A stretch of 64,000 bases of DNA from Bryoerythrophyllum caledonicum (Eukaryota; Streptophyta; Bryopsida; Pottiales; Pottiaceae), in assembly GCA_963971425.1 (NCBI GenBank), contig OZ020525.1, positions 18,544,187 through 18,608,186 on the forward strand. The letters are read 5' to 3'. This document shows, one piece after another, positions 22,301 through 64,000 of the stretch. A model generated the notes under the pieces. It did no database searches. It was not told where the DNA came from and saw only the letters and a list, made by a program, of their open reading frames with translations. Each line of letters starts with the position of its first letter. Positions within the stretch are counted from its first letter, which is position 1. The position numbers and the translations under genes are program-made.

Positions 22301-22331
22301 ACAAACTCGCAAAGCCCAACCCATACCACAA

Positions 22332-34983: not shown

Positions 34984-35624
34984 CATGGCGACCATCTAGG
35001 CCGACTCGTAAGAGGAGAGTGGACCTAGACCTCTTGCTCACCACGGCATACGGTGAGGAGAACAAAGTAAAAAGATGTGGAAAGACAATTAAGGAATATG
35101 GAAGAAAAGACTAGGAAGTTAAAAATATGTGATGGTTTTGAAGAAAAGCTAGGAAAACACAATCGGGAAGCGGGAAAAAATGAGAGAAAAAAATAGATGA
35201 TTTGGAGACAGCATTCGACTAGGAAGAATTGGAAGATTAGTAGAATGGATGCGTGTCCCATTTTTTTGAGTTAAACCCATTCGCCCTCGACGGACCCAGG
35301 TTGAATCTACAGCCAAAAAAGATTTCAAAACCGCCTTCCGCCTTCATCGGAGTGAACTTGGACTACAGAGAGATAGAAGTTCCAATCTCTTTGGAAGGTA
35401 AGGAAAGCAAGGAGAAAAATATATTTTTGATAGGAAATTGGGAGAAAAGAAAACACTTGTCTCTAGTGTAGTGATGAGACTAGTATGGTTGACCCATGGA
35501 GAAGACATGACCGGCTGCAACTAGTGGTCTAAAGGCACTAGTTGAATCGGAAGAGTCATGTCCTCCCCGTTGTGAGGCCAATTGTCACGAAGTGAGGTGG
35601 GCTAGTGATAATGAATCCACTCTA
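34984..35624 (-). other. 3' untranslated part of the gypsy element
   Basis: Lies between the end of the polyprotein frame and the left LTR. It contains no recognisable protein. An envelope-like frame is absent, and a clean polypurine tract next to the LTR is not obvious. Confidence 0.6.
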
Positions 35625-40541: not shown

Positions 40542-40559
40542 TTGTTGTTGGAGTTGGTC

Positions 40560-41600: not shown

Positions 41601-42631
41601 CTAACGATTAAGTTGCCGTTCTTAGTTTTCTAGACCTATGTGAAGACATTTCGTAAACACAAATAATTGACTTAAAATGATCCCAAGTTTCTCCCAAACT
41701 CCCCCATGCTGGGAAGTAAAAAAAATAGAAGGTTACATGTGGGGCTAACCTCCGGACGAGGTACACCCACTATGCCCCATACGATATAGACTCTTAGTTG
41801 GGCTGACCACCTACTTGGAGGTTTCTCCTCGGTATCAAGGTATCCCCAATTTCTCTCCAAGGGACGGCATCACCAACTCAAGAAAAACGACACCAACATG
41901 TACAAAAAATCCTTCATTGGTTCATCATAATTCATTCATTAAGAAGGGGAGAACGTACCTGGCTGCAAATTCACCTTCCCTGTTTGATCCCTAACCGAAT
42001 CTAAGTGCCTAGTGTAGGATTTGGTGTAGTGAGGAAGGTTCGTATACTCACCTTATGCCGTGCTCCTTCCTCACGACCCCTTCAACATGTATACCATTCC
42101 ATGTATGCAACATTCATCCCATTTAATATACAAAGCTATCGATGACACCCAAGATGCTCTTACCTTGGTGGTAGATCAAGTTCGGGGGGGAAGGGAAGGG
42201 CGCCCTTGTCCCATGCCCGGGCACATGCACCTTCCCTCTTTGGCTTAGAAGCTCACTGATTACTTTCAAGCAATCGTGGGAGGGCCTCAACCTTTCACCC
42301 CTAAGCCCCCTTACTCAACCAAAGCACAAGAGTTAGAAGGTGGTCCGCCTAACACAATGTGCTTGTGTTAGGAGGTCGGGAATTCCACACACCCTTCTAA
42401 CTCCCCACCTCCCTTACAACTTGGACAACACACCTCATACAAGAATACATGCACAAAAGTAGGTTTAGCAACTTACCTCAAGCAATCGCGCACTCCACCT
42501 CCCACATGAGACCAAATACCACTCAACTCACGGTTTAGGTCAGAAATAGACAATTCAGAACCGCAAACACCCTAAATTTAGCAATCCAGCAGCAAGACAA
42601 ATACCTTCCAAGCAACAAACCAAACAATTGC
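41601..42631 (-). other. 5' leader of the gypsy element
   Basis: About 1 kb between the primer-binding site and gag, without a credible protein. Such leaders are usual in plant gypsy elements. Confidence 0.6.
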
Positions 42632-42651
42632 TCCTCCCGGCGGACGCACCA
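42632..42651 (-). promoter_or_regulatory. Primer-binding-site-like sequence
   Basis: Read on the minus strand just inside the right LTR, TGGTGCGTCCGCCGGGAGG begins two bases after the LTR end. A TGG start and this position fit a tRNA primer-binding site. I could not assign the tRNA with confidence. Confidence 0.6.
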
Positions 42652-42653
42652 AA

Positions 42654-45303
42654 TGTAAGCCCAAAAATAGACCCCCTAAGAGAATCAATTTTTTAACCCA
42701 CAAGGTCCTATTATTACACCACTTAACCATTCCTTAAGCTTAACCATACATTCTACTTTTACTGAATTTGGATCTTTAGCATATCCATTTATATATTTAG
42801 AATTTAATAACACTATTATCTTAACCCAGCTAAGTGAACTCAATTAACCTTCCCTTGTAATCAATTACTTAACTCTGGATAAATTAATTAGGTATAAGTA
42901 ATTATTTAATTATTTGTTATCTAATTACTACGGTTATCATTATTTGTTTATTATTTATTATTATTACTTTTTGATTTTATTATTTATTTATTTAATTATT
43001 ATTTTATATATTTTAATTAATTAATTAATTAATTATTTTTTAATTTGTTAATTTTTGGTTTAAGTCGGCTGATTAGGCCTGATCCAGATCCTGTTTTGCA
43101 GCAGCAACTTCAACAGCCCTTATCTTTTGATTCGGTACTCCGAATCCAAAAAAATTTCCTCTTACACTAATCAGCAGCTCATTTCCAACTTGAATAGACC
43201 ACTTAGAACCCAAATCAGCAGGCCGAGGACATAGAAACCACCATCACAAGCAATTTTCATGCACCAACAATCTCAACACATCATTATGATCTCAAAGACG
43301 AACTCATGCATACCAAAATAGAAACCATGGGCTGTGTACCGGTTCAACTTTGATGGAACTTGTGGCCAAATACCTAATTCTGGTAAAAATTTACCAGCGC
43401 TTCCGCATGAGATTCGGCCACCGAAATTTTAACACCTAGACATCTCGTACAGACACCTCCAGCTCCACAGTCCTCGCACGCAGCTCCGCGACAAGCCGGT
43501 GACGTCCTCCAACAATTCGCACAAGACTCACACTCCAACATACCACCTGTGGTCAGAGGCGTTTACAAACGCCGGCACCCCTTCCGCAGTCCACCGTGAT
43601 CGCCAACTGCCGCGCACTCTTCAGCTCCCACAGCTCGCGCGCTCCACACTCGCGCACACAGATGCGCACCACCAAAACGGAGTCTCCAAAAAAAAGAAAA
43701 AAAACCAGCAGACCTCGCGAGAGCTCCGCACCCAGGTGCGCACTCTACACACAGCAATCGCGGTGCATACACACACACACGAACCAACAAACACAGCCCA
43801 AAGAAAGAAAAAAAAAAAAAACGAGAGCTACAGCTTGCACACTCACAGGTGCCTCTTGCACTCCGGCGCTCCCCTCCACACGCCGGCACTTCTCCACCGG
43901 AGCCGCACCGGGCTCCCTGCCTCCGAATCTCCCTCGCGCACACAGGTGCGCACCTTTTCAACAAAACAGCACCACGAAAACCCGGAGAGCTCCAGCCTCC
44001 GATCCTCCGGCTCTCGCACCCTCGCTGGAGCTACTCTCCCACACAGGTGCCCTAAAACGGAGCCAACACATGGAAACAGCGAGCTCCAGCTTGCTTGCTC
44101 GCAGGAGCTCCTCTTCCACCAAAAAAAAAAACCACCCTCTCCGGAAACCGGAGACCTCCAGCTCTCCTTGCTCGCAGGAGCTCCTCCCACGCAGCCGCGA
44201 GCTACACTCACTCACAGGTGCCTCTCGCACACCCGGTGCTATCTCTCCAAAAACAACAGTCTTCCTTAAAAAAAAAAACAGGGTCTCCTAGCCCCCTTGC
44301 TCGCAGGAGCTCCTCCCATGCAGCCGCGAGCTACACCCCCGCGATCCTCCTTCACGCGCCCAGATGCGCGCCTCTCTCCACAGAGCTCCCAAAAAAAAAG
44401 TACACACCGCTCTCCAGCTCCTTCGCTCCCAGGAATTCCGCCTGGCCCGGTCCTTTTTTTCTTCCTTTCTCTTTTTTTTTCCTTTTTTTTCCCTGACCAG
44501 ACTGGCTTACCTTAATGAGGCAGCCCATAACCTCTCACCGAATTGCAGAATTGGCTTCTTACAGCCGTCTTTGCATGTTTTTAGTTTATCACGCATTAAT
44601 TCGCCGCTTTGCTCCTGACAAGCTTCCCTAAAATTAAATCCATGGTGGCAAGAATGATCATGTGGCATGTGCATGGAGAAGCACATCCAACTACTTCCCC
44701 TTCTTTTTCTTTTTTCCTTTTTCTTTTTCTTTTGATCTTTTAAAGACTATTACACTAGATCTAGTACTATCTACTGCTGATTTGCAATTTACTTATAACT
44801 TCAAAAACTAACCACATAGCTGGACTCCCAGAACCCTAATTAGTCTGCCTAAATTTTCTTAGCATTTTTGAAGGTTCCTAAGTATTTTTCCCGAACGGTC
44901 AACCCGTCGATCCACTAGTCAAACCCCAGAATAAAGTAGCAATTCAACTCGGAAAATTCTAGAAATTTTACCACTACTTCTACCTGCTAGGAGACACTCT
45001 CCCAATTTTTCCCATAATTTTTGTCCCATTTCTCAATTTTTAGTCATTTTCCAAGGACCTTTCTTCCCCTTTTTTATCTTTCTCTTCATTTCCATTCCAC
45101 TTCCGCTACACTTTCAAGCATCTTAGTCGGAAAGAGGAAAAAATAGGAAACTTAGTGTCACATCATGGCACTAGGCCTATTACTCTAGGAATTTTGACTT
45201 TAATAGACGGTTTGACCACTACTTTAACTAAAATTGGGTTAATACAATCAAGAACTCGAAGAAATGAAGGAAAAAGAGTGAAGGCCCACTTTGGCCACTC
45301 ACA
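42654..45303 (-). repeat. Right LTR (5' LTR of the element)
   Basis: 2650 bp, TGTAAGCCC...CACTCACA on the plus strand, matching the left LTR except for about three substitutions and one 17-bp repeat copy. As the 5' LTR it should hold the element's promoter, but I could not pinpoint it. Confidence 0.95.
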
Positions 45304-45308
45304 CTTGT
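45304..45308. repeat. Target-site duplication CTTGT, right
   Basis: Exact copy of 32312-32316, immediately after the right LTR. Confidence 0.9.
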
Positions 45309-45374: not shown

Positions 45375-47039
45375 TCAAAGGACGATATCATCATCATCTG
45401 GTGCCTCATTGCAATCTGGACGGTTGTCATCATCAGCTCCTTCATCGCTCTCATCTGAGAATTCTCCATTGCTACCATTCGTAGTCCAAAAGCCCTCTAT
45501 TTTAGAGTTGTCATTGCGAAGCTCTACGACTGTTTCACCATCGCAACGCGAGCGTCTAAATCTCTTTTGTCGATGTGCGTGAGGATCATCGCCGTCGGAA
45601 TTTATGGTTGGGCCGCTAGCAGGACGAACTACTCGATTCGGAACAACAAACGCCGTAGTTGTTGAAGAGCGTCCTGGAACATACGTGTCCAAAAACGGTT
45701 GTACAACCACGTTCGGATCTCGTGCCCCTATTCCAAGGAGGGGACGTCTACGATGCCTTGAGGAGGATGCTTCGCCGTTGTTTCTTCCTTCACGGCCTCT
45801 AGCCGCTCCACGGCCTCTAGACCCTCCACGAGCATTAGTCCTTCCACTCGGTTCTATATATTGACCCATTGGATGAAGAGGCGTCCTTGTAGCGGCCAAG
45901 GGGGGTCTGCCATTTCTGGTAGTAGTAGCGGAAGTGTTTAGACCCATCCCCTCAACACCTACACTTCGTTGGAAAGGTCCATACATGGCATTCGCCGTTC
46001 TAGGAGAAGAGGAATTCCGGGAAGGCGGCATTGGTACATTCTGGTCATTGATAACCGAAGGAAACACCACAACCGGAGATGGTTGTGGCTCAAGGTCCTC
46101 TGTGAATGCAAAAGCATCATCGGGGTCTACATATTCCGGGTCAAAACGCTTTCGCTGATTAACAACCCTTTCATTTCTTTGAGTCGTCCGTACAATTGTT
46201 GTGTTTACAACATTTGCGTTAGAGTCTCCTTGAACGACTCCAGTGCTATGAAATGATGCACCCATTCCAATAGGGCTCTCTTGGCCATACCGATTTTCAA
46301 CCGATGCTTGGTTGTTTCGAGTCGCAGTATTTACTGCGTTCTCTCCCGCTCTGTTGTTGTCACCATCTCCATTTCCACCTCCATAGTCTGATGGGGAATT
46401 GTCATCGTCGCGAACATTCCCGACATTGCCCCCCCCCGTTTCAGGCTCTTCAAGGTTAGTCACATTTGGGATGTCGCTCTCTGAGGAAGTAGACAAAGGT
46501 TGCACTTCATGAATGCCCTCATTTTGAGGAAGAGGAGGCAAAGGACTGCAACGAGGACTTTGATTCCAAGGTCCCCAACGACCTTGAGCCAATTCTTCTT
46601 CCACATCGTCATCATCTCCGTAATAGTTTCTCGTTTCCTCAAGATGATCGACGCCTTCCGCCCAAAGATTAGGGTGACCTCGATACTCTAGCGGAGAACG
46701 GGGAGCTGCGGAATTGTGCTCATCCTCTTCCTCGGCTATCAACACATCAAATTCACGATTAGATTCACCCACCAGGACCGGCCCCAGGGCATCTGGGTCG
46801 GAATCCTCCGAGTGAATATTCGCATCGAACCATCGAACGGGATCGACCCGTGGTCTTTGTTGAAGGCATCGGCTATTGGTATAAATATACACCAATGACG
46901 TAGCCTTTTCTGCCGCTAATCGATTTCGGCTCTTGTTGTGGACAAACGAGTACATACTCCAGTTTTGTTCGCAAGAGCTAGCTGAACACGTAAGGGCTAG
47001 AATACGAAAAACTATTTTAGACAATGGGTGAACGCACAC
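45375..47039 (-). pseudogene. hAT transposase C-terminal part with long acidic tail
   Basis: A 554-residue open frame without a convincing ATG. Residues about 4-58 are the hAT dimerisation region: HPLSKIVFRILALTCSASSC, then EQNWSMYSFVHNKSRNRL and LVYIYTNSR. The rest is a long low-complexity tail rich in Asp/Glu/Asn with Arg/Gly-rich patches (NARGGSRGRGAARGREGRNN) and an acidic end (DDDDIVL). BED, DUF659 and the catalytic core are missing, so this is a truncated relic or a last exon. The young gypsy element sits about 70 bp past its stop codon. The frame is open over its whole length, which leaves room for a retained or co-opted gene, but nothing shows that. Confidence 0.65.
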
Positions 47040-47850
47040 TACGGTTGTACGAATTTGTAGTCACGGCACAATTTCAGGGCCAGGTACAAGTTTGGACTCA
47101 ATTTTAGACTAGATTTTTTTATATTTTGGAGAAATTTTTTAGTAGGCATAGTTCAACGTCTTGCATTCATTGAAGAATAGAAATCAAAATAGTCATTGCA
47201 TAAAACTAAACCCTTAAAATGAGTACAAACATAAAACGTTGGTACTGTCACGGTTTCAGGTTTCACATGTTTGTACTCATTATGATGGTTTTTAGTTATC
47301 ATTTTTACATTTTAAATAGCTATATATGATCCCCTATTCTTTGGCTATCACGCCTTGCTATTTGTATAGATAAAATGATAGCCAGTAAATAATAAATGTA
47401 ACAAATGTGGCTTTTTTTTCGGGGATCCAAAACATGAGTTTAAAGTCTTTTTTTTCCATTTTTTTAAAAAAATTGGCGTTTAGGGACTATATTTCTAAGG
47501 CGGCCATCAAACGAATTTTGAAAATAAAAAAATCTTCCTCTTCATTTTCGGTATCGGAGATGTAGGTCTCCATATTGCCTTAGTTTTTCTAGAATTCTCA
47601 TATATTCCTCTCTATAACGCTTTGTACTCAGTTTGTACAGTGCGTACTTGTTGTACTGTATGGACTAATCAGGGGAGCCCCTTTTGTCTTCCAATTTTGG
47701 ATTTATCTGACATCTCCACGTTGTCAGCTGTTGCCTTTTCAGCAGGAATCTCACTTGAATTACCAAAATTTGAAAGGCGGCAAAATTCTTTTGTCGCTTG
47801 CAAGTTATCCACACACAATGACGATGTCATCCTTCTCTGAGTACCTTCTC
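47040..47850. other. Non-coding gap upstream of gene A
   Basis: AT-rich DNA between the hAT relic and gene A. Many TGTAC words occur after 47,240. The part 47,620-47,850 may contain a first non-coding exon of gene A, but I cannot define one. Confidence 0.35.
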
Positions 47851-47854
47851 GAAA

Positions 47855-48495
47855 TTTTGAAGCAACCTTCTTGGAGTTGCTCCGCTTTGGAGCTTGAATT
47901 GGGCGTCTCACAACAACCTTTGCAAGTGAGTTGGATTTAGGGTTTTGTTGTATTCTCTTTGAACAGTTCTTTATATGTGTTCATGTATATTTACTTGACA
48001 AAGCACATGATTCTGTTTCTAACTTATAGAGGTTTAGGTTTAGGTAGCTAGAGTCTTTTAAAACCCTTTGCTAGTTGTACATGATGTACCAAAGTCTAGT
48101 ACAGAACGTAGTATTCAAGACAAACTGTACTATTTGCGAAGTCCCTGATAAATTTGCGACGTGCAGAATTGCCCATCTTTTCTAATTTTGAAGCAAACTT
48201 CGTGCATTTGGAGCTTTAATTTGGAGTGTCAATACAACCTTCGCAGGTGAGTTGGATTTAGGGTATATTGTATGTTTCTTTTATGTGGTTTTTGGATGTT
48301 TTTTGTGTATGTTTACTTGACCAAGCATACTGTTTTATTTCAAACTTATTGAAATTTAGGGTTTAGGTAGATAGAGTTTAATAAACCTAGATTGCTAATT
48401 GTACTCGACAAAATAAAGTCTAGTACAAAAAGTACTGTCTAATACAAAGTGTACTATCTGCGACGTGCTAAAGTACCCATCATCCCTTATTATCC
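47855..48495 (+). repeat. Tandem duplication of gene A leader, period 321 bp
   Basis: Two diverged copies, about 47855-48175 and 48180-48495, align throughout. They share TTTTGAAGCAA, GGAGCTT..., ACAACCTT.GCA and then a donor-like GTGAGTTGGATTTAGGGT (47926 and 48247), and later GTTTAGGTAG, GTCTAGTACA and GCGACGTGC. Each copy has the look of a 5' UTR exon end plus intron start. They lie directly before the acceptor TGTATTGCAG of gene A. Confidence 0.75.
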
Positions 48496-48528
48496 ATAAT
48501 TTTTTGTCATTGTATTGCAGCCTCAACC

Positions 48529-51172
48529 ATGGATTTTGCATATGGGTCCGAATTTGAAGCAGACGATTGGTTGATTCAGAGCAGGACCTTCTCCAGAGAA
48601 GATGACCCTGCAAGGACTTTCTCTAGAGAAGATGACCCTTCCAGTTTCTTCTCTAGAGAAGATGAGCCTGTAAGTGACTATGACTACGATGACGATCTCC
48701 CTGGATCTCCGCTTGCTAGATCACACGAAGAAGGCCTTGCTAATCACAAGGTGAAGAAGAGTGCTTTGGAAAAGGAAGTTGAGAAGTTGACGTCTCTAAA
48801 GACCCATCTTCCTCCATGTGCGGTCACCGAAGAAGATTTTGAGACAAAATACGGGCTCCCCAATAAAGGAAAAAATCCACACAAGTTGCGACCTCCAGTT
48901 GACATCCAGGACAAAGAGGTAACTGATGTTTTTGGGCCACCTAAGGGAAGGAAGGGGAGAGCTGGTTATAGTTACGGAGATTGTAAGGACCAAAAAGTCT
49001 TAACCCGCATTAATGAGGTTTTTCCCTTGGTTTATTTGAGAGATCTGCCTAAGTCCAAGGTTATAGCTAAACAATTTGCTAGGGGGATTGTCATGGAGGT
49101 GAAAAAGAAGAAACTTGTGAGTTGGGCGGAGTTTGCTGCGGCCTCTAACAAAAACCAAAGAAGCAAATGGTTAAAGAAGGTGAAGATATCTTTGAGGGTT
49201 CTAGGACAACTCACAGGCAAAACGGAGGATGAACTCTTTCTGCATGAAAGGATTGATGAGTTGTTTCATGATCCTACTGTTAGGGCTTTTGTAGTTCCAA
49301 AAGTTCTGAACGTAGTGAAGGAAGAGGAGGTTCCTATCCAACAGTGTAGCCCAGAAACTGATAAGAATTTACAAGACCTCTTGAAGTTGATCAAGTTCGT
49401 GGGATTGCAACTTCACGTTGTGACGATGGACTACATCTCTATCAACAAAAAGAAAGCTGATTTGTTGAATAATGTGTCCCATGAAGAAGGGGTCCTCCGC
49501 CGAACTGAGGAAAAAATTGTCAGGATGCAAAAGATTCATTGTGTACGCAATGTACATGGTGTGCATGATGTACAAATTGGAGCAGATGAACAAAACCTAT
49601 CTAAGAAGGAAGAGGCGTACCAAGAGATGCTCAATGATGCCAGAATGGATTACGAAGGTGCTGTGTTAGAGCTGAAGGGATGTAATGTACGGTACGAAGA
49701 GCTTCTAGCTAGACAAACTTGTTTGAGGAGGCAATTTGATGCTTTGTTGCTCCAACTTACTCATACGAAGAGAGGAGAAGATGGTATTGCAATGAGACCT
49801 ACTCCCCATTGCTCCGTATTTGATTTGAAGGCAACATCAAAGTCTAACTCAATATTGATGCAGCCTTGTGCGCTTTGCTTCAACCATTTCCCTTTAAACG
49901 ACATTGTAGTTAGTACTTGTGGGCATTTATATCATCCCTGGTGCGCAGCTGTTTGGTTTAGGATGGCTAGCACATGTGCAGATGTAAGTTGTGGCACATC
50001 AGTGCATCCGTCTTGGTTTCGTAGTTTCGGATTTGGACAACTGCCTACACCTCTTCAACAACTTACAGAAACTTTAGATTTGGAGAAGGAACAACACAGT
50101 CTCCTAGCCAGCTTGACATTGAATATATTGAACTCACATCCAGACATCGGTATGTTCTTTATCCTACTGCTCTTTACTTGTTTGAGATAGTTGAATGTTT
50201 ACACATGTTTTCTTTACATGATTTATATAAAGAGTACAAATTGTACTAATATGGTATTTAACGTATGTTCCGTGTACATCATTTTTACAAAAGAATTAAA
50301 ATGAGTCTACTGTGATGTGTATATTGTATATATTTATATGCAATTGTCTATTTTTGAGGCATAGAGAACTAATTGTCTTGTCTTACGTTAGTGCAGATCC
50401 TGAAAAGATTTATCAAGATCAAATGGCCCAATCCACAGTATGCACATGGACTCAAAGCGCAAATGAAACAGCTATTATGGACAATGCTGGTTTTGAGATT
50501 AGTTGTAGTGGGAGCCGTGGAACACAGAGCCTAGGAAATAATAGCACTGTTGGGAGTCAAGAACCCAAGGTTCAAGTTTCAAGGCACCCATTGCGAACAC
50601 AATCACATTTGGGTCTTCCATCTATAGACGAAGTAGACTCCCCTGACAAAATAAAGGAGGATCTTTACGAAAGGACAAAAGTGGATGTTGGCAACAAAAC
50701 AGAGGTGGATGTTGGCAACAAAACAGACCTGGATGTTGGCATGTTCAAGACAAATGCGGGTGTTGGCAATGATGGGATACCAACTACTGTCGTAGAGGCT
50801 ACTGAGGTTGACCCTGAGGAACCATCCATGAATCGTACTGTAGAAATGGAGCTTGAAGAACGTATACAGAAGTTAAGAGAAGAAGCTGCGGAGTTTGAAA
50901 GACTTCGGAAGTTGAGGCAAGAAGCTGCGGTATTAGAGCGCCTCAAAAAATTGAGAGAAGAAGCTGTTGAGTTGGAATTCAAAACTGAGGCATCAAAACA
51001 AATAGAGTTGTCCAAGGCAGTGATGAAGGTGCCACCCCCACCTCTTCTACCTCTGAATGATGCTAAATATCCACCAAAACGAAAGACTAGAAGTGAGATT
51101 GCCGCTGAAGCTAAGGAGGCAGAGGAAGCTAAGAAGAAAAACAAAAGATCCAAGAAGAATCGGCGTGGATAG
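48529..51172 (+). CDS. Gene A: RING-H2 and coiled-coil protein (paralog of gene B)
   Basis: Predicted as join(48529..50149, 50397..51172), 798 residues. The ATG at 48529 (CAACCATGG) follows an acceptor TGTATTGCAG. The intron has donor GTATGT and acceptor GTGCAG, phase 1. Residues about 17-45 hold three FSRED(D/E)P repeats. Residues about 95-230 are a conserved domain shared with gene B (EEDFETKYGLPNKGKNP, VFGPPKGRKGRAGYSYGD, VSWAEFAAASNKNQRSKW). A charged helical stretch follows, then a C3H2C3 RING-H2-like finger: C447, C450, C464, H466, H469, C472, C483, C488, ending HPSWFRSFGFG. The exon-2 part has DVGNKT repeats, a coiled coil (LREEAAEFERLRKLRQEAAV) and a basic tail (KKKNKRSKKNRRG) suggesting nuclear location. 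RING-H2 fingers usually act in ubiquitin ligases, and that role here is inferred. No SET region follows. Confidence 0.75.
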
Positions 51173-51785
51173 GATACTTTTTGTGGTGCATGGAGTTTAG
51201 ATGGTACGAAGTGGAATACTTTGTGTTGTTTGTCACATCTGTTGTGTAGATGGGGACATAGTGTTTCATAATTCATGAACTTTCTATTTACTTAACTGCC
51301 GAGGCTTGCATATATTGATTTTATCACCTATATTGTGTCGCATGTATTGCCAGAAACATCCCATGTATTGCCGGAAACGTCCCATGTATTGCCAAGAAAA
51401 ATTTGTCTTCGGTACAATTTGTACTGTAGGTATAGTTTGTATCGCTCAAAGTCAACTTGAAAGATGTCGTGGGAGTCTTTGCGGCGCTGGTGCCGAGACC
51501 CGGGCTTTATGCTACCCTTTTGAACCGGTCGTCGAATACTATTTTATTTTCTTTGGGTAATATTATTTCATTTTTTTATTGTGAGCATTTATATATTTAT
51601 TATATAATTAAAACTGCTATACCCTATTTTACCATTTTTTCTACTCCACTTTGTAATAAATAATATTTTCCTATGATTTTTTCTTTGAACTAATAAGACG
51701 ACATTGATTTAAACACAAATTTGAGTTTATATATATAAAAATTAGATTAAACTAAAATACTTTACAATAACTATAATTACGTGGA

Positions 51786-51870
<85 letters not shown>

Positions 51871-52500
51871 GAATGAATAATTAACACTTTAAATTTTTGT
51901 ATTTACAAAAAACAAATATTATACTATACTATTACATGCATATATATTCTAGAAATATGAAAAAAATGAATCATCAAGTATACAATTGTCGAAGACCATA
52001 GATTAGCCTAACCACATTAACACCAATCCAACATTTAATTATTTTAATGAAAGATTACCATTCGTCCTCCCATCAATCCGATATAGATTCTCCATATTTA
52101 GAAGATTCACATCTTTTATTTTCAAACTTTATTTTCGAAACAAGTTGATTTAAGTAACAATTATAGACATAATCATAGTAATGACATAGTAAATCCTTGA
52201 ACGTCACAAGGGAACCGTATACACATGACCGTATTTCACTTTATATAATGCAAAAATTGTACTATAACTTAACAAGATTTACACCTTATTATTGAAATTT
52301 CTTAAACTAGCATCTTTTATTGGAGGTAAATTCCAACTTTGAATTTTATCAGGTTTGAATATTGTATTGTGTATGTAAGAAATTGTGCTTGTCGCATTAT
52401 AGTGGTAGCTCTTGATGTTTAGCGATTAAGGCAAAGTTGCCATGTACCCCTTTTGAAACAAAGAGTCCGCTGAAAAAGAAATCGGGCACTAAAAACACAC
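51173..52500. other. Gene A downstream region, AT-rich
   Basis: It contains three near copies of a CATGTATTGCCGGAAACGTCC-like unit around 51,340-51,400 and then AT-rich non-coding DNA. Nothing coding is supported. Confidence 0.45.
51788..51871. repeat. (AT)n microsatellite
   Basis: About 80 bp of nearly pure AT dinucleotides, interrupted once by TGTATA. Confidence 0.95.
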
Positions 52501-53560
52501 ACACATAAATATATATATTTATATGTGTGTCTACACATATATATCTATATATATAAATAAACATATATGTATATACAAATATATATACATATATATGAAT
52601 ATATGTATTTATACATATATGTCTATAAGTATTTATACATATATGTCTATAGGTATTTATACATATATGTCTATATGTATTTATACATATAAATCTATCA
52701 GCATTTATACATATATGCCTCTATGTATTTATACATATATGCCTCTATGTAATTATACATATATGCCTCTATGTATTTAAACATATATGCCTCTATGTAT
52801 TAATACATATATGCCTCTATGTATTTATACATATATGCCTCTATGTATTTATACATATATGCCTCTATGTATTTATACATATATGTTTAATATGTCTATA
52901 TGTATTTATACATATATGTCTATTTGTATAGATACATATATGTCTATTTGTATAGATACATATATGTCTATTTGTATAGATACATATATGTCTATTTGTA
53001 TAGATACATATATGTCTATTTGTATAGATACATATATGTCTATTTGTATAGATACATATATGTCTATTTGTATAGATACATATATGTCTATCTGTATTTA
53101 TACATATATGTCTATCTGTATTTATACATATATGTCTATCTGTAATTATATATATTTGTCTTTGTGTATCTATATATATATGTCTTCGTGTATTTATACA
53201 TATATCTCTATGTGAATTTATACATTTATGAATATATGTATATATACATATATATAAGTATATATATATATATATATATATGATATCTATACAATCCAAA
53301 CTTATATATATATATACATATAAGTATGATATATATATACATATATATACATATACATATATAAATATACAGATATAAATATACAGATATATACATATAT
53401 ACATATATATACATATATATATATATATATGTATATGTATATACATATATGTATGTTATATATCATACTTGTATGCATACATGCATATATATATACTCTA
53501 TAATAGTTATATATACATGTGATATGTGTATATGTATATACATATTTATATCATATATAT
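52500..53560. repeat. AT-rich minisatellite field, 24-bp units
   Basis: Two related 24-bp families follow each other: TATTTATACATATATGCCTC-type units at about 52,590-52,900 and TATAGATACATATATGTCTA-type units at about 52,920-53,100. The stretch then degrades into TATATA runs to about 53,560. Open frames through it encode Tyr/Ile/Met repeats and are artefacts. Confidence 0.9.
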
Positions 53561-53784
53561 ATCTACTTTCCACTCCTAGTACTTTTAATAAGGCATTTGC
53601 ACTATTCTACATATCACTTTTAGTGGTGTAGACTAAAAGCGAACCTGTATACTATTGGTGAACTAGGCAATTAGTGTCGTGACAAAAAATTACACTATAT
53701 GCTAATTGCTATAGTATTTGCATATTCTCGTTAAGATTGTATGAAAAAAGAAAACACTCGTGCGCATTTAGCCTGTCAAGAGTA

Positions 53785-54150
53785 CCGTAGGTGAACCTCT
53801 AGTTCGGCACCTTAATGCCGAATAATTAATTAAGTGAAAAAATGACATTCGGCATTCAAAATTACAATAATGTTATTTTCGGCAAGAAATCAAATATTAC
53901 TATATTTGGCCTGTTTTGGCACCCATGAGAATTGAACTCAAGACCTTGGGATTCCGAACTCAAGTGCTTATGTATGATTGTCATGGATGAAGACTTTTCC
54001 AAGCCTTAATCCCCTTTGATGTCTCTACACGTGCCAAAATCTGTAAATATTCATTTTTTGCAATTTCGGCATTTTCAAAAAAACATTTTCCACTTAATTC
54101 GGCATGGGCTTTTCTAATTAATTTATGCCGGACTAGAGGTTCACCTACGG
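53785..54150. mobile_element. MITE with 25-bp terminal inverted repeats and TA duplication
   Basis: The left end CCGTAGGTGAACCTCTAGTT is mirrored by the right end (inverted CCGTAGGTGAACCTCTAGTC), one mismatch over 25 bp. TA flanks both sides (53783-53784, 54151-54152). It is 366 bp with no coding capacity. TA duplication suggests a Tc1/mariner-type or related transposase source. Inside, around 53,930-53,980, the reverse strand carries GAGTTCAATTCTC, reminiscent of a tRNA B box. Confidence 0.8.
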
Positions 54151-54639
54151 TAGTTCTAGAATATTGTGAGTAGATTTTGAGTATGAAAAGCGACTGAGAT
54201 TTCTAGTACATTCAGGAATATCAACCATTTGGAAGAATTTTTTTGGAAAAATGAAGGTGTGGATATGGAATGAAGGTGAAATTGGAAAATTAGATTAAAA
54301 AATCAAATGGAGAAGAAAATATTGAGAAAAAATAGAACTTAGATATGGAAAAAAAATAGAATTGCATTATAAGGTCCAAACACTTGAAAAAGTAAACATT
54401 TGAAGAAGCCAACATTAGAAGAAAAGAAGACTTGAAAAAAATAAAAATTAGAAAGATATACATTAGAAGAAAAATCAAATGAAAAGAAAATACCTGTAAA
54501 ATGAACATTTGAAGATAAAAAACAGATGAAAGTTTAATGTATAGAAAAATGAAAATTTGAAGAAGTATATCTTTGAAGAATGAAACTTACGAAGATGTAT
54601 ATATTTGAAAAATAAACAGTTGACTTGGAAAGTAAAGGT

Positions 54640-55195
54640 AAAGAAAGGAAGGCTTTAGAAAAGTAAGGGTTCCAAAAAGTAAGGGTTAAAAAAAAAGGAT
54701 TTGAAAAAGTAAGGATTTCAAAAAGTAAGGGTTCAAAAGTAAGGGATCTAATAAGAAACGGTTTAAAAGAGAGGGATTGTAAAATTATGGGATAATAAAA
54801 AGTAAGGGTACCAAAAAGTAAGGGGTTGAAAAAGTAAGGATTTGGAAAGTAAAAGATTGCAAATCTAAAGGTTCAAGAAACTATTGAAAAGTAATGCTTT
54901 AGAAAAGTAAAGGTTCCAAAAAATAAGGGTTAAGAAAAGGAAGGATTTGAGGAAGTAAGGTTCCAAAAAGTAAGGGTTCAAAAGTAAGGGATCCAATAAG
55001 AAACGATTTAAAAGTGAGGGATTGAAAATTTATGGGATAATAAAAAGTAAGGGTTCCAAAAAGTAAGGGGTTGAAAAAGTAAGGTTTTGAAAAGTAAGAG
55101 ATTGCAAATGTAAAGGTTCAAGAAACTATTGATTTGAAAAGAAAGGCTTTGAAAAAGTAAGGGTCCAAAGAAAGAAGGGTTTTTAAAAAGTAGGG
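54640..55195. repeat. Nested A/G-rich repeat (AAAGTAAGGGTT units, 244-bp higher order)
   Basis: Short units such as AAAAAGTAAGGGTTCC recur dozens of times. A block starting GCTTTAGAAAAGTAA at 54652 is repeated at 54896 with the same order of variants (including GGGATAATAAAAAGTAAGG), so a 244-bp higher-order tandem duplication is present. Confidence 0.85.
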
Positions 55196-57528
55196 GTTTG
55201 AAAAAAACTAGAAGTCAACAAGACTTCATTATGGCATGGCATCAATTAGGTGGTTTATTGGGGGTATCATTAATGGTGTTGGCGGCAACACTAATCTTCA
55301 ACTTATTCACGAATAGAGTGCAAAGGTTAGTACAATATTGTGTCACTACACCAAAAGTGATATTTAGTGTACTAGCAAACTCTATTATTAGTATAAATAA
55401 TTTACAAACTATAGATGAATTAATTTTTAAATGATGTAATTTAAAAACTGCAATAAAATGGTTTGACTAATGCGTTGCTAAGCAAGCGCCATCCGCTATC
55501 ATAATACTAAAATCAGAAGCAAAGTCATAAAGTCAGAAAATTGATGATGTCTCTAATTCAATATAAAGGCATGCATAAAAAATGTAATCAAGTATTTAAA
55601 CCTTAACCCCTAAAGGACCAAGTGTAAATAATGGGCATTTAAAAAGTTTGGTCAGGTTCCTATGGTGTCAATTCCCAACATTCCTTTTTCAAAGCTTTCC
55701 TACAGAAAGGCATTACAGATATTTTAGTGGAAAAACATTTTTTTGCTAAATTGGACATTTGAAGAAAAAGTTATACTAGGGATTAGAATTTCAAATGGGA
55801 AGAGCGGGCACCTTGGGCACCTCCAAAAACTTTTGCTAGGACACTATATTGTTCAAATGTGAAATTTTGAGTACTCTATTGAATGCATAGTACAAAATGA
55901 ACCATTTGCTTGACTTCAAAAACTATAATCTTTCAATCCGAGTGGCCAAAATTTATGAAAATTTGAGAGTATATTACTCAATAAGTCTTAATTGCTCAGA
56001 TCCTACGGTCTGAACTAAAAATCAAAGTTTTTGTTTCCTTCTTTGTTCATTGCACTAGAAACCAACAATTTTGAAGTGTTTTTGGTGTAAAATTTTCACG
56101 GTACTTTAGGGGTTAAATAGAGGTGTACAAATTATTGATTAAATGAACACTTAAACTGACCATTCATTTCATCAGTCCATCATATGATTCAGTGAATAAG
56201 TACTCCATGACTAATTGATGTACGGCCTATTTAATTAAATATTGGACATGCTTGTGTTTACCAATGATATGCCTAGTTCTTGAATGAGCCATTTAATTCG
56301 CTTAACTTTTCTTCCTTACATGACATTTCTTCTTCATTATATTGGTATAAGACGTCATTTCCTAAATAAATTGATTACTACCCATGGCACCGGTTCACAA
56401 AATAAAGGATGTCACATTACACAAATGGATGACCGGTGGTACCCCGTTAACATTCAAAAGTGACCGGTGATAGGCTGTGGAAGGGAGATAACCGGTGATG
56501 GGAGGTCATGTGACCGGTGATAGGCGGTTGTGGAGACTTCTTCAAAGGGCGGGAAACTGTTTGAGCCGGTTGCCATTGTCTCGCACCTTGTGGATGATGA
56601 GAAGGTGGCGCCAACCACAGTTTGAGAGGTGTAGGAGGAGCGCATGCTTGTGCGGAAGGGGAGATCTGGAGTGCTAGATCAAGGAGAATTTGGAGGCAAC
56701 AAGTGTGGTAAGAATTGCAAACAAGATTGTCTCACCCAACATTTTGTTTTTTGTTAGGTAGAACTGTGGTGCTTTCTAGCATAGTGTGTTAGAAACGTGA
56801 GTTGTTTTGAGGTGGAGCGCCGTGTGAGTGAGCACTAGTTTTGGTGCTTTCTAAAGTAGCCCTTCATTTTCAACTAGTTGCTTGTGCATCTAAGTCTGAG
56901 AGGGTATTGTTTGTTTGTAGTGCACATGATAGAGAACTGTTGACCCATTTGAAGCAAGTACCCGAACCTAGTGAATCTGATGCTTACTAAATTGTAATGT
57001 GAGTGGGATTTTTGGATTTAGGTTTGAAAATTTCTTGTCGATGTTGTGTCGTTCTCTTCTGTGCTCCTAACTTGCACCATCTTAGAAGTATGTGAAGCTG
57101 TAATTTGTTGATTACGATCATTTTTGGGTTTGGATGACCATTTTATTGTATTCGTAATGTGTACTGTTTGTACTAGTTTGTACAATATGTACCATTTGTA
57201 GTGATGTAACTGTTTAGTAGTTATTTTGAAATGCTCAACCTTGGCGGACATTGATATTTTGTGGTTCTTGATGTTGTCTGGTATACAATGTTGATCTTGT
57301 GTTGTAGTTGCACGAGTCAAAAATCAGGAGGTGGGAAATGGGCTGAAGAGGTGGAAAATGGGTTGAAGAGAAGACGTTGCCAGAGTTTTTGGCTTGATCC
57401 AACCACAAACAGGTTTTTTGGCTTGATCCAACCTTCTCCAATTTTGTACTTTGTGTATTGTTTTATATTTTTCTACCATTTTCTACACTAATGTCTTGCA
57501 AGGGCAGTTTGTCATTTCCAAGGTTGAA
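55196..57528. other. Intergenic region upstream of gene B
   Basis: Mostly AT-rich without supported genes. Around 56,455-56,530 GTGACCGGTGAT(A)GG occurs three times. Around 57,320-57,440 there are short tandem duplications (GGTGGGAAATGGGCTGAAGA and a TTGGCTTGATCCAACC unit). The last part probably contains the gene B promoter and 5' UTR. An acceptor-like GTCTTGCAAG lies about 35 bp before the ATG. Confidence 0.4.
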
Positions 57529-60500
57529 ATGGTTCGCTTCAGAGGAAGGGGCTCTAAGATGCTTTCGGGTAGGGGACGTACGTTGGAAGGAAGTGGCAGT
57601 GGGAGATTGATTACAACGCGAGGGATCACCCGAAATGTGATAGCTGCAAGGGAGGAATTGCAGCTCTTGGAAAAGACTGTGGATACTGAAGATGAGGAGC
57701 TGGACGATGAAGACGAGGAGCAAGATGGTGAAGACGAGGAACAAGATGATGAAGACGAGGAGCAAGATGATGAAGACGAGGAGCAAGATGATGAAGACGA
57801 GGGGCATGATGATGAAGACGAGGAGCAAGATGAGGCAGACGAGGAGCAAGACGAGGGGCAAGATGATGAAGAGGAGGAGCAAGATGAGGCAGACGAGGAG
57901 CAAGACGATGGGCCCGAGGAGCAAGACGATGGGCCCGAGGAGCAAGACCATGAAGACGAGGAGGAAGGAGAACCCATGGGGATAGAGGAAGTTGATGTGG
58001 AGTTGGGAAGGCTACCAGAACCACCTCCATGTCTCACGACGGACTTCTTCACCAAGCACTATGGATTCAAAGATGAGGGTGCGAATCCTAGTAAGCTAAC
58101 TAAATGGAAGGGCCAACCATTTGACGATAGCAAGTGCGTAGCTTTGTTTGGTGAGCCGGTTGGAAGAGAAGGACGGAATGGATACAATTGGAAGGCAATG
58201 AAGCAGAGGAAGATCCGGCAGAGACTTGAAGAACTTCTTTCAGCTCTATACCAGAGGGTTGTAGTGCCACACCTCCTTCCTCACAAGATGGCCCGAGCAA
58301 TCGTTTTGGAGGAAGATGGAGAAGCGGTCAACTGGGCGGCGTATGGGGCTGCCACCAACAAGACACAACGGGAGGCGCATAAGAGAAATCTTGTGCGGCT
58401 TCAGAAGTTGAAGGAAACTTCGACAGCGGTGGCCCGTACAGAGTGGAGAAAGATCCACGTGGATCCAAAGGAGCTCCACTCAGAGGTGTGCGAAGGTGGA
58501 GGGAGCTCCTTTGGTGGACGAATTATAGATGGGGAGGAGTGCCACAACAGGTTATCCATTAACTTACCATCTACTTAAGTGTCTAGCCTATTTGTTAAGT
58601 GTTGAGCCTCACATGTAGATTTTGATGTTATTTATTTTATTGCATGTTTTAGATTGCACAATGCGTACTATGAATGGTAATTTTTATATGGTTGCCCAAC
58701 TAGCTAGTATTTGAGTTGGGTCAATGTGCAGCTGCTAGTTTGTTTTGTTTTTAAATACTTCAAAATGGATTATTGTATTGATCTGAACAAAATTGTGGTA
58801 AATGTACAGTTTCCTCCATGACTGTACTCATAGGTATGTGGATTGCCACAGGTATGAATACATTGGGAAAGTTCTTGAGATGGAGAAATTGGAGTTGGAG
58901 GCTACGGTGGATCTTGAGCGCCAAGTTGCATCAGCAAAAGACTCACAGAGGACCGAATGTAAGTATGAAACGGGAGTTTTATCTTGCATGAAGTCAAAAC
59001 AAAAGGATTATGAAAAGAAGGCACAAGAGCTACAGAGTCCTTCAGATGTGGCAGCAAAGAAGAATGCTTTGGAGGAATTAATGGAGGGCACAAGTGTGGC
59101 ATTGGAACGGTTGCAAAGAGATGGAGTCATCTTACAAAAGGATCTAGAGCATCACAGCGACCAAGTTGCAAGGAAGCAGTTGGAAGTTGGAGCTCTTGAA
59201 GTTGAGCATGCCCAACTTGGGCGTGCTCGAAGTGGCTTTCACTTGAGGCCTATGCCCATGGTATACACACCGTCAAACGAACCGTGTACTTCACAGGGTT
59301 CCCTTGATATTACAGATTGCGTGCTTTGTGGCTTTCCATTCCCCAACTATGAGATTGTAATCTCTAGTTGCAAGCATCTATACCATCCATGGTGTTCGAT
59401 GGTGAACTTTTCACAGTCGAACAAGTGTTGTGCTCGTGGTTGCTCCATGGTTCAACCAACTGCTTGGACCGCAAGTTTTGGATGGAGGGGTGCGCCGGGT
59501 TGGGGGCAAGGACAAAGTGGAGGCAAGGATTTTCTGAGTATGATGTTGGAAATGGCTCCATCTATCGCTGCATGTGTAGCATCACGCAGTGACGCTGCTC
59601 GAGCTCCAAAGCTCTATTCACCCACACCAGGTGATGTGTTCTTCCCTATTTGTACAAATTGCTTGAAGTTGTACTACGGTGAATGTATCTATACATTGTT
59701 TTACAACAATTTCTTTCAAGCTGGATTTGTTTGTACTTGTATTCGAGTGGATTTGTATATTATGTATTTGGTTTGGACTTGTGGTATTGAGACGTCTAAC
59801 CTTTTGTACTGTTTTGTGCTTGTTTGTACTTGTATGCTTTTAGATCTTAGTTTTGTAGGACTTACAACTGAAGTTGGACATTGGTTCGATTTGTTTGTAC
59901 TTATATTTAACTGGATATGTATGTTTGTTATTGGGTTTGGACTTGTGGTACTGACAGCATATACTATTTTTATATCACCGTTAAAGTTTGTACATGTATA
60001 CTTATATCGATGTGTTTTTAGGACTTAGAATTTTGATTGTACATAGGTTTGTGTTTAGTTGCACTTTACTGTACTGTTTGGTACTACTAATTATCACTGA
60101 CTTCACCTTTTTGTACTGGTGTGTACAAATGTGTACTAAGGTGTATTGTTTTGTACTAAGGTGTATTGTTTTGTACTAATGTTTATTGTTTTGTACTAAT
60201 GTGTATTATTTTGTACTAATGTGTACTGTTTTGTACTAATGTGTACTGTTTTGTACCAATGTGTACTGTTTTGTACTAATGTGTATTGTTTGTACAAATT
60301 TGTTTGTAGTCTGTAATTGTATTTGTATTGTTAATGTATTTTGGTTTCGACTTATGATACCAGAAGCTCTAACATTGTTGTGCATTATTGTAGTAACCAA
60401 TATTGGCGAATTGAACATGGGGGTAGAAGAAGAGTCTCAACCTCTACTCAGAACTGCAAATGAAGGTCCCACAATTGGTAATGAAGATCCTACACAAGTC

Positions 60501-62454
60501 ACTATATCAACGTTGTAAGTACATCCGTGCTCCGATAATCATATAGCTTGTTATGTTTTATTTTCTTAGTTCATTCTCATTCATGCATGTTTTGTACATT
60601 ACCACAAGGTTTATACATTATGTATTCGATTAAACCATTATTTTATATAGGCCTATGCTTGTACAATATATGCTTGTAGAGCCTGAGCATGTGGACCTAG
60701 GTAGCAATGTAGACCCCATTTGCCTGAGTGTATTGAGTTAATGAAGTATTACTCATATGATATTGGGTTTAGGTTGCCTTTGGAGCCAGCAATGCCGGTG
60801 GAGTCAGTGGCTCCGGTGGAGTCGGTGGCGCTTGTGGAGATAGTGGAAGTTGTGGAGCAGGTGCAGAATCAAGGCAATTCAGACACTCCGGCTGGATCAA
60901 GTCACCAGAGGAGATCAAAAAGACCAAGGCTAGAGAAAAACATAGAAGCCACGGCAAGTGAAGAAGACCAAGAGAAGAAACATGGGAAGAAAAAGACAAA
61001 GAAGAAGACCCATCCACGACCCAAAGTGAGAACTTAATTTTTTTTAATTCACTTTGTGGGATTACAATCGGCAACTAGTTCAAGTTTGCAATGGCTTTCT
61101 ATTTCCTTGGAAAAGTCTATGCCACCATTATATATCTTTGAATTGATAAAGAGACTTTTTTACTAATATAGATTTTTTCTATGATCTACAAAGCTAACAT
61201 GTTTATGAGGTTGTATTTCTAATTCATTTTTGTCCATAGGCACAACTATGGTTTGATACAATGGACTTATCCAAGGGACTCGAAGTTGTTCCAGTGTCCG
61301 TGTGCCTGGATAGCTTGAAGGTCCATGAATTACAAGAATTTACTTACATTAACCGCTCCAGGATGTCTGATTTTGCATCCCACCTATCTAAAGTCACAGT
61401 GGATTCTCCACAGTTTTGCCGTGATTGCCAAAGCAATTGTCTTGGACAAGGCTGCAATTGTGGAGTACGCACAATCAAACAATCACCTTATACTACCCAA
61501 GGTCGACTCCGAAGTATCCTTCACCAAACTGTAAGTGTGAAATATATTTTCCGTCTTGTACCTTCTTGTACAATTTGTATTGCGCTTACCACTATGTACA
61601 ATGTTGGTACATCCTATACGATTTTTTCAATTTCATCATGGTTTTGGCAGGAATTGATGGAGGAGGTTTTGTTTTGCGATGGAGAGTGGTGCATGGAGCA
61701 AGACGTTGGTGGTTGTCCTGGTCACATGAACAGAATTTTTTTGCAGGAATGCAATGACGCATGCAAGTGTTTGCTCTCTTGTGGAAATCGGGTGGTCCAA
61801 AGTGGAGGGCGTATCCCCATACAAGTGTATTGGTCCGGAGTGAAGGGATGGGGACTTAGATCTAAGAAATTTATCAATAAGGGGACTTTTGTGTTTGAGT
61901 ATGTGGGGGAGATTGTGACTGATGCAGAGTTGCAGCATCGTAGGGCCTTGGGGAGACTTGGGAAGTCAGAGGCGTACACTATGGCGCTCAATGCCACTTG
62001 GAAACCAGAGGAGGACTATTCGAACAATGTTGGATTTTGCATTGACGCCACAAATTTCTCCAATGTTACAAGGTTTTTGAATCATAGGTATTTCCTTCCA
62101 ACATCAAAATGTATGAAGACAATTTTACTTTGAGATTTATTTGGAAAATTGTGATTTGTATTAATCAAAATTGTGTGTGCATGTATTTTTTACAGATGTG
62201 AAGATGCAAACCTTATAGATGTTCCAGTGACGATTGACAACAGTGACATACGATTGTTCCACGTAGCCTTTTTTGCATGAGTCAATATTCCGGCTTGGGA
62301 GGAATTGACCTGGGATTATGGCTGTTGCTTTGATAGATCACAAGTTAACGAGGTAGATGCAATATTTCCTTTCCATTGTCAATGTGGTAGCACTCGCTGC
62401 CGGGACAGTAAAATTGACGATTCAGCCATTCAACTCACACTTGACATTTTTTGA
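57529..62454 (+). CDS. Gene B: RING-H2 plus SET-domain histone methyltransferase
   Basis: Predicted join(57529..58550, 58852..59630, 60394..60514, 60713..61025, 61240..61530, 61651..62087, 62196..62454), 1074 codons, all phases consistent. Order: Arg/Gly-rich start, an acidic DEEQDDE repeat (about 55-150), the domain shared with gene A (FTKHYGFKDEGANPSKL, VNWAAYGAATNKTQREAHK), a coiled coil (LEMEKLELEATVDLERQVAS) and a RING-H2-like finger from C497 (CVLCGFPFPNYEIVISSCKH). A basic tail (KKKTKKKTHPRPK) follows, then pre-SET Cys cluster (from about 805, FCRDCQSNCLGQGCNCG), SET (GWGLRS at 908, YVGEIVTD, NHRCEDANL at 986, ELTWDYG) and post-SET (CQCGSTRCRD). The join 61025/61240 uses donor AAA|GTGAGA just before a TAA and acceptor CCATAG, phase 0. 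SUVH/SUVR-type SET proteins methylate histone H3 Lys9. A TGA at codon 1016 interrupts SET. If the 61025 splice is not used, there are two adjacent genes. Confidence 0.65.
57685..57965 (+). repeat. Acidic 21-bp coding repeat in gene B
   Basis: Units like GACGAGGAGCAAGATGATGA encode about a dozen variants of DEEQDDE within the first exon, giving a strongly acidic low-complexity segment. The opposite strand's open frames here are shadows. Confidence 0.9.
60117..60300 (+). repeat. 20-bp intron satellite built on TTTTGTACTAATGTGTACTG
   Basis: About nine copies of a 20-bp unit lie in the third-exon-flanking intron of gene B (59631-60393). Each contains one or two GTAC cores. Confidence 0.9.
62278..62280 (+). 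other. In-frame TGA inside the SET domain of gene B
   Basis: The reading HVAFFA-stop-VNIPAWEELTWDYG breaks between two conserved SET motifs. CGA (Arg) at this position would give FFARVNIPAW, close to what the family has, and CGA to TGA is the change expected from deamination of a methylated CpG. It would remove the ELTWDYG and post-SET parts. Confidence 0.75.
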
Positions 62455-62461
62455 TCTTGAG

Positions 62462-62507
62462 TGAAATGATTCTACATGTTCTATTTTCTACATGTAGAAT
62501 CATTTCA
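62462..62507. terminator. Perfect 17-bp inverted repeat after gene B
   Basis: Arms TGAAATGATTCTACATG (62462-62478) and its exact complement (62491-62507) with a 12-nt loop, starting 8 bp after the TGA stop. It could fold in the 3' UTR. Calling it a 3'-end or stability hairpin is inference. Confidence 0.6.
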
Positions 62508-63173
62508 ACCGGAACTCTAAAACATTGAACAACTTCCATAATTATATCACATTCTTATTATGTTATTGTTATATTGTTTTAATTCAAAATCAAGGTATTA
62601 TATGTATGACATTTGTATCCAGTATAATGCTTGTACCAAATTATAAAAATTACATAGAAGGTAGGATATTTCTAAACTAATGAATATACATAAAACGGGA
62701 TACTCAGAAACCATCAATGTTTCATGACCTTTAGGATGACCACTAAATGCAATCTAAAAAATGAAATAATTAGCAAATAAACATGTGCAAAAAAAATACT
62801 TAACTGTTACAATCTAAACCATCAAAACGTCATGACTGTTGTGGTGACCGCCAACTGCAAAGAAAATAAACTAATCAGCAAAAAAAATGTGTAAAAGATG
62901 TACTCACAAGATTTGGTGATGATTATATCTAATGCTTTAAACAATATAGAATTTAGTACCTCATAGGATTTGAGTTTCTTTAGATGTACTAACCTAGCAA
63001 CAATTAATCAAAACACTCCCAATAGTTTGAGTATGGCTGTAGACATTCTCTTTAGTCACTAGCAAAATCCAGAAAATGCTCATCCTAAACCCAGTCCAAT
63101 GCAAGAGAAACTATAATATCATAGAAGAAACAACAAGATTTGTGTACAATCATCGCAATTAATACAAACTAGC
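62508..63173. other. Non-coding region between gene B and the satellite
   Basis: AT-rich. It contains two loosely similar stretches around 62,705-62,765 and 62,815-62,870 (AAACCATCAA...TGACC...) and scattered GTAC words. No gene seen. Confidence 0.4.
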
Positions 63174-63813
63174 TAGTACAACTAGTACAACTTGTACAAC
63201 TAGTACAACTAGTACAACTAGTACAACTAGTACAACTAGTACAACTAGTACAACTAGTACAACTAGTACAACTAGTACAACTAGTACAACTAGTACAACT
63301 AGTACAACTAGTACAACTAGTACAACTAGTACAACTAGTACAACTAGTACAACTAGTACAACTAGTACAACTAGTACAACTAGTACAACTAGTACAACTA
63401 GTACAACTAGTACAACTAGTACAACTAGTACAACTAGTACAACTAGTACAACTAGTACAACTAGTACAACTAGTACAACTAGTACAACTAGTACAACTAG
63501 TACAACTAGTACAACTAGTACAACTAGTACAACTAGTACAACTAGTACAACTAGTACAACTAGTACAACTAGTACAACTAGTACAACTAGTACAACTAGT
63601 ACAACTAGTACAACTAGTACAACTAGTACAACTAGTACAACTAGTACAACTAGTACAACTAGTACAACTAGTACAACTAGTACAACTAGTACAACTAGTA
63701 CAACTAGTACAACTAGTACAACTAGTACAACTAGTACAACTAGTACAACTAGTACAACTAGTACAACTAGTACAACTAGTACAACTAGTACAACTAGTAC
63801 AACTAGTACAACT
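63174..63813. repeat. 9-bp satellite (ACTAGTACA)n, about 71 copies
   Basis: A nearly perfect array of about 640 bp. Every unit contains the palindromes ACTAGT and GTAC. A few edge units differ (CTTGTACAA near 63190, CTAAAACAA at the end). Confidence 0.97.
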
Positions 63814-64000
63814 AAAACAATAGTACTATCTCGTACAAATAAAAAATGCTAAAAATAAAAGTCCAAGAGTAAATATAATACGCAATTGTTTCCAACATGT
63901 ACAACCACAGTACACTAAGTACAAATTGGTACAAACGGTACAAATAATGAAGTTGATGCCTAGTACAAACATATCATCATTCCACAAAGACAAGTATAAC
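63814..64000. other. GTAC-rich flank of the satellite
   Basis: Non-satellite DNA that still has many GTAC words (GTACAACC, GTACACTAAGTACAAATTGG, GTACAAACGGTACAAA). It looks like the seed text from which such arrays expand. Confidence 0.4.

Follow-up and report, generated by a model that had tools for sequence, protein, structure and literature searches.

DNA transposons carrying genes for SET histone methyltransferases are on record, with HarbingerS and MuDR families of Phytophthora as the cases described (PMC12730594), and SETMAR offers a related case in which the integration site of a transposon lay downstream of a SET gene belonging to the host (PMC6326780). In CLRC of fission yeast, an E3 (a Cul4 ubiquitin ligase) works with Clr4, the SET enzyme for histone H3 lysine 9 (H3K9) (PMC12407891); Clr4 is stimulated >250-fold by H3 ubiquitinated at lysine 14 (H3K14ub) (PMC8443253), and the plant enzyme SUVR4 binds ubiquitin via its WIYLD domain in vitro (PMC7218100). 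Here a 64,000-nucleotide stretch of contig OZ020525.1 from the moss Bryoerythrophyllum caledonicum was analysed (the window; coordinates beyond 64000 continue the same numbering). Its gene at 57529–62454, predicted to join a RING-like finger to an H3K9-type SET domain and referred to below as the RING-SET gene, is cargo of a multi-copy DNA transposon with terminal inverted repeats (TIRs).

The element resembles HarbingerS and the Phytophthora MuDR families in being a DNA transposon with a SET gene; it differs in a transposase without a Pfam match, a 4-bp target-site duplication, a length of ~24 kb and a SET domain joined to a RING-like finger, HarbingerS being set apart on its description. As in SETMAR, a SET methyltransferase is tied to a DNA transposon, but here the SET domain travels as cargo and the transposase has a gene of its own next to it. 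The gene shares pre-SET, SET and post-SET with the SUVR/SUVH and EHMT/SUV39 proteins, whereas neither SRA nor WIYLD, the latter being the mark of SUVR1/2/4, was found in the RING-SET model (Pfam, E ≤1), an acidic tract, a coiled coil and the RING-like finger stand in front of the SET part, and the gene is mobile and multi-copy. VIM/ORTH are plant chromatin RING finger proteins with SRA and without SET; a RING or RING-like finger is common to them and to this gene, which lacks the SRA match. CLRC consists of separate subunits with a cullin ligase, in contrast to the single chain predicted here, which would bring a RING-like finger itself. As far as we have seen, what is new is the presence of a RING, the group to which the transposase belongs and the conservation in three families described below, SET in transposons being already known. 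No plant transposon with a RING-SET gene was found among the matches listed from the open-licence literature searched, a scope which leaves subscription papers and Repbase Reports mostly outside and so says little on absence.

The element is 23,982 bp long and runs from 47026 to 71007, 7 kb past the window end. The left boundary of homology was 47026 in both copies fetched that far out, and the right boundary was 71007 in one copy, the other having the inverted repeat at the corresponding place. All three copies read at both ends had the 20-bp TIRs and were flanked by 4-bp duplications (CAAT for the window copy, AGGA and CACG for the others). When the flanks of the window copy were joined minus the element and one CAAT, a frame was open across the joint, with one stop ~90 codons upstream of it, and the left-flank part of this frame contained a hAT dimerisation domain (22.5 bits, cut-off 21.4). 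The interrupted gene is a hAT-type transposase gene (45378–47021 in the window and from position 1008 of stretch L034), and the joined frame is direct evidence of insertion. The preliminary description had treated the locus as a gene with an unfamiliar RING-SET architecture, read here as a host gene, an idea that draws on the good exon chain and the recognisable SET domain. The empty site refutes a host gene at this locus; together with the TIRs, the target duplications and many near-identical copies, among them 18 other SET copies of the same span, it rules out that status and shows that the feature is not unique, and with the TGA inside the SET domain it makes a host origin vanishingly improbable. 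One copy taken alone resembles a new host gene, and it is the copy number, the inverted repeats and the empty site that reveal the transposon; an annotation run on unmasked sequence would list numerous broken RING-SET genes.

Copies were sought in the 437-Mb assembly, and their numbers are lower bounds. A search with a SET profile, in which 150 of 327 candidates were scored and 149 kept, gave at least 19 matches with an identical 477-bp span, window copy included, and a DNA search with SET exon 6 (40 of 72 candidates scored) gave identities of 82–100%. For the 18 other copies of 477 bp, 10 kb of surrounding sequence was fetched in each case. In sixteen of them most of the length can be aligned with the window, long pieces being 95–99% identical, and the alignment to the window is partial for the remaining two (L019 and L025).

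The RING-SET gene, read from the window DNA on the plus strand, consists of seven exons with GT/AG junctions in consistent phase (Table 1). The GC content is 0.40–0.52 in the exons and 0.26–0.34 in the introns, with 0.29 in intron 4. The donor AAA|GTGAGA at 61026, the TAA at 61035–61037 and the acceptor CCATAG|G at 61240, on which the preliminary description had built the join between a basic tail and the SET part, are all present as described there; if intron 4 is retained, translation stops at this TAA. The phase-consistent seven-exon chain stands, but a TGA at codon 996, inside the SET domain, interrupts its frame and had been overlooked. The model has 1053 codons ahead of the final stop in place of the 1073 residues announced, a difference of 20. 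An additional exon near 60650–60710 was dropped from the model because of a phase mismatch with the next exon, judged by eye. A repeat of 20-bp units lies in intron 2 (60109–60307); the length of this intron varies by -105 to +61 bases between copies, and that of the five other introns by -1 to +5.

Table 1. Features of the transposon and its RING-SET gene, in window coordinates.
Feature	Position	Strand	Evidence or remark
Left 4-bp target-site duplication, CAAT	47022..47025		Right copy just after 71007 (stretch L034)
Window part of 23,982-bp TIR transposon	47026..64000		Continues to 71007 (L029, L034)
Left terminal inverted repeat, 20 bp	47026..47045	+	20/20 bp identical to right one
First RING gene, paralogue of N-domain and RING of the RING-SET gene	48472..50187	+	PF13639 28.5 bits, cut-off 27.3
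Open frame with lysine-rich end; probable next exon of first RING gene	50300..51169	+	
Exon 1: acidic tandem-repeat tract (57687–57967) and N-domain	57529..58550	+	N-domain relatives in families 2 and 3 and three metagenome proteins
Exon 2: coiled coil, then RING-like finger at ~59312–59443	58852..59630	+	
Exon 3: linker	60394..60514	+	
Exon 4: linker and lysine-rich tail, reaching the disputed donor	60773..61025	+	Equivalent tails in families 2 and 3
Intron 4, phase 0	61026..61239	+	GT/AG kept in 18/18 other copies; families 2 and 3 share the layout
Exon 5: pre-SET	61240..61530	+	PF05033 29.9 bits, cut-off 29.1
Exon 6: pre-SET end and first part of SET	61651..62087	+	PF00856 41.3 bits, cut-off 22.4
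Exon 7: remaining SET and post-SET cysteines	62196..62454	+	
In-frame TGA within SET	62278..62280	+	Missing from 18/18 other copies
Array of ~74 copies of a 9-bp unit, within element	63173..63838	+	

Within this set only the window copy has the TGA, none of the 18 others having a stop at the site, and the window copy is a dead copy. Since the stop removes the SET end and the post-SET cysteines, this copy should lack methyltransferase activity. Elsewhere the seven-exon frame is open in two of the 18 copies; a further six are in frame with one internal stop (one of these also without a donor GT), and the remaining ten are disrupted by frameshifts, by multiple stops or by the lack of exon 1.

That the RING and SET parts belong to one chain is predicted with good confidence, mainly from a comparison of three divergent families of such elements. 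Besides family 1, that of the window, these are family 2 (L036 and L007), with 53% identity in SET across 165 residues, and family 3 (L026 and L027), and in families 2 and 3 the N-domain, RING, lysine-rich tail and pre-SET/SET follow one another on one strand in the same order. In all three families a phase-0 GT occurs in the tail a few codons ahead of a stop (AAA|GTGAGA, GGG|GTAAAA and AAG|GTAAAA, respectively), with a second possible donor in the family 2 tail, and the pre-SET exon opens in phase 0 after an AG. The joining of a RING and a SUV-type SET in one gene, as first described, is therefore supported by this order and by the phase-0 junction in three divergent families, although the gene is not the host's. 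A transposase gene of the same kind, in convergent orientation, follows the SET gene in 3/3 families, and the association of RING-SET and transposase is therefore older than the family split.

The locus could also be read as two head-to-tail transposon genes, namely a RING gene ending at the TAA at 61035–61037 and, behind it, a SET gene that has a separate promoter and, in the window copy, a start near 61261. Several observations point that way and so weigh against a single chain: in the window copy a Met at 61261 precedes DLSKG; the SET frame of family 2, if unspliced, has in-frame upstream Met codons; in the metagenomic SET relative P0011 the called frame covers SET alone and begins six residues ahead of DISGG; and the first RING gene of the element also ends lysine-rich, with no SET after it up to 57400. 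Start calls of the P0011 type are mechanical. In family 3, however, there is no Met from the in-frame stop to DLSDG in either of its two copies, and its SET exon therefore needs an upstream coding exon. Families 1 and 2 share coding similarity that reaches further upstream than DLSKG (W.D..DLSKG), each of the three families has both donor and acceptor in phase 0, and in family 1 the tail is separated from the SET exon by just 214 bases (intron 4). Two separate genes are therefore judged unlikely. All 18 other copies of family 1 retain the junction GT and AG, which says little for copies this similar. Searches of protein databases, made with piecewise queries and not with the whole RING-SET protein, returned 18 relatives for SET, 75 for the transposase and three for the N-domain. 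Under the one-chain model a RING-only form would perhaps arise through retention of intron 4.

Pfam was run on a read-through model with X at the TGA codon, giving pre-SET at 35.0 bits (cut-off 29.1) and SET at 66.2 bits (cut-off 22.4), with RING matches at 15–19 bits, short of their cut-offs of 27.3–27.4. Against solved structures the SET domain gave 112 matches at E ≤0.001, the best being EHMT2 (8.7e-32), and the top matches among the 60 listed of these 112 were EHMT2, EHMT1, SUVH6, Clr4, DIM-5, SETMAR (3bo5) and SUV39H2. Because its solved relatives are EHMT2, SUVH6, Clr4, DIM-5 and the like, the SET domain is assigned by homology to the H3K9 class. The more specific name of SUVR-like is a putative one that goes back to the text NHRC.DANL.

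The RING-like finger is diverged. All eight ligands are invariant, in C3H2C3 order, in the five aligned sequences, each of which matches zf-RING_2 at E ≤0.1, and a profile search of solved structures returned 22 matches at E ≤1, mostly RING ligases plus two unrelated proteins. Three features weigh against a conventional RING-H2 ligase: the finger of this gene scores 15–23 bits, under the Pfam cut-offs of 27.3–27.4; the best match of the RING profile in the PDB has an E-value of 0.0065; and the last ligand pair is Cx4C, invariant in 5/5 sequences. The canonical last pair of RING-H2 is Cx2C. An extra Cys stands beside the first of this pair in two of the five sequences, the window gene among them. 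Given the score, the weak PDB match and the Cx4C pair, the finger may act as an E3 or may be merely structural. A structural model of the N-domain and RING was made from the metagenome relative P0096, not from the window gene, and had a mean predicted local distance difference test (pLDDT) score of 58.4 from six sequences; this model gave no Foldseek match at E ≤0.001 and otherwise mostly coiled coils, with the RNF146 RING at rank 35 (E 1.1).

The state of the copies bears on whether the RING-SET gene does anything for the element. The non-synonymous/synonymous (N/S) ratio among copies, counted with the acidic tract (57680–57974) omitted, was 0.70 for all changes and 0.88 for shared ones, that is, nearly relaxed, and selection on the fused frame therefore cannot be demonstrated within the family. 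Shared changes over all exons came to 16 synonymous and 50 other, too few to decide on selection on the linker. These near-neutral changes count against a function, as does the breakage of the fused frame in 16/18 copies examined, and captured genes are a known cargo of TIR transposons, so that the SET and RING parts might be captured passengers that do nothing for the element. A passenger would be expected to decay, however, and the pre-SET/SET motifs are still recognisable, the same order and the transposase being found in three families whose SET residues differ at about half of their positions or more. Passengers thus appear an improbable explanation.

We consider it reasonably likely that the RING-SET gene is an accessory gene of the ~24-kb TIR transposon, encoding a one-chain protein that acts on the chromatin of the element. 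The predicted chain begins with the acidic tract and the N-domain; a coiled coil, the RING-like finger and a lysine-rich linker come next, and pre-SET, SET and post-SET of the H3K9 type close it. Through its coiled coil and linker the protein would be anchored to chromatin, or to a partner located at the element, whereupon its RING would recruit an E2 or organise a complex, and the SET domain would methylate H3K9 or a silencing protein, with an altered chromatin state of the element or its targets as the result. The sequence by itself establishes the transposon, the arrangement of the parts, the SET class, the eight RING ligands, the disruption of the window copy and the open frames elsewhere; the spliced fusion, all enzyme activities, the targeting and any gain for the element are predictions. 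The mechanism favoured, as an inference, is ubiquitin-linked H3K9 methylation serving the element; the coupling of ubiquitin ligation to methylation, already suggested in the preliminary description, is put forward as a hypothesis, given the diverged RING. A fuller version, in which the transposon lineage would have a single-chain E3 and H3K9 methyltransferase, a one-protein analogue of CLRC that governs the element's own chromatin by placing ubiquitin first and H3K9 methylation second and that yields a RING-only form on retention of intron 4, is rather doubtful. Transposons are usually targets of H3K9 methylation, and this lineage keeps its own H3K9-type methyltransferase, predicted to be joined to a ubiquitin-ligase-like finger. 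If true, this would provide a natural case for studying how a mobile element exploits the silencing system of its host, and for whether a ligase and a methyltransferase gain from being in a single chain.

Two other genes of the element were examined. The first RING gene shares 25% identity with the RING-SET gene over 420 columns, and nothing else within 45001–57400 matches the RING-SET gene (E ≤1). The open frame that follows it probably continues the first RING gene through a predicted join. The transposase-like gene lies on the minus strand, from ~70.46 kb down to 67344, convergent with the RING-SET gene. A putative DDE-type transposase, it has no Pfam family; its relatives number 75 at E ≤1e-5, of 1880 candidates, and 24 aligned relatives conserve the acidic motifs D.AENY, SDG and GKGE.DG wherever the alignment reaches them. 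The model of one relative (P0025; pLDDT 83.5) weakly resembles nucleases of the RNase H fold: the structure search gave one match at E ≤0.001 (NurA, probability 0.23), along with weak matches to Piwi and RNase H.

Membership of Harbinger (HarbingerS) was considered and rejected, the duplication being 4 bp and no Harbinger-type Pfam match being found for the transposase at E ≤5; Harbinger elements have a 3-bp duplication (0–3 bp in relatives) according to their description (PMC12730594). The metagenomic proteins P0011, a SET relative, and P0050, a transposase relative, come from the same sources, with a longest contig of 12,253 bases each, and are possibly parts of one element in another organism. 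Academ elements combine a 3–4-bp duplication with a Cys-rich transposase, and the 4-bp duplication and the Cys-rich front of the transposase make Academ a candidate superfamily for the element.

The window also contains other mobile elements. A non-long-terminal-repeat (non-LTR) retroelement is represented by plus-strand frames at 19781–27673, with a reverse transcriptase at 22559–24247, RNase H in the frame at 24251–27673 and an endonuclease-like frame (19781–21925) just under the cut-off. The frame at 24251–27673 also matches PCIF1_WW (41.4 bits, cut-off 31.1), a domain related to cap methyltransferases and here part of a retroelement. On the minus strand, a Ty3-type element at 32317–45307 contains gag (40563–41600) and pol (35628–40559); it is flanked by direct repeats of ~2.65 kb that are 99.2% identical, and is therefore probably young.

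SET-like sequences occur in other repeats as well. One of the SET matches with a 341-bp span (L037:5174–5779) belongs to a different repeat family with a SET-like frame of another kind, and the text upstream of it resembles that of an EnSpm-type transposase; the 341-bp matches were considered as a fourth family and set aside, the one stretch read (L037) having no RING match. Near the start of contig 1 (G000:C1:50600–57034), four SET matches lie 2,031 bp apart in a tandem array.

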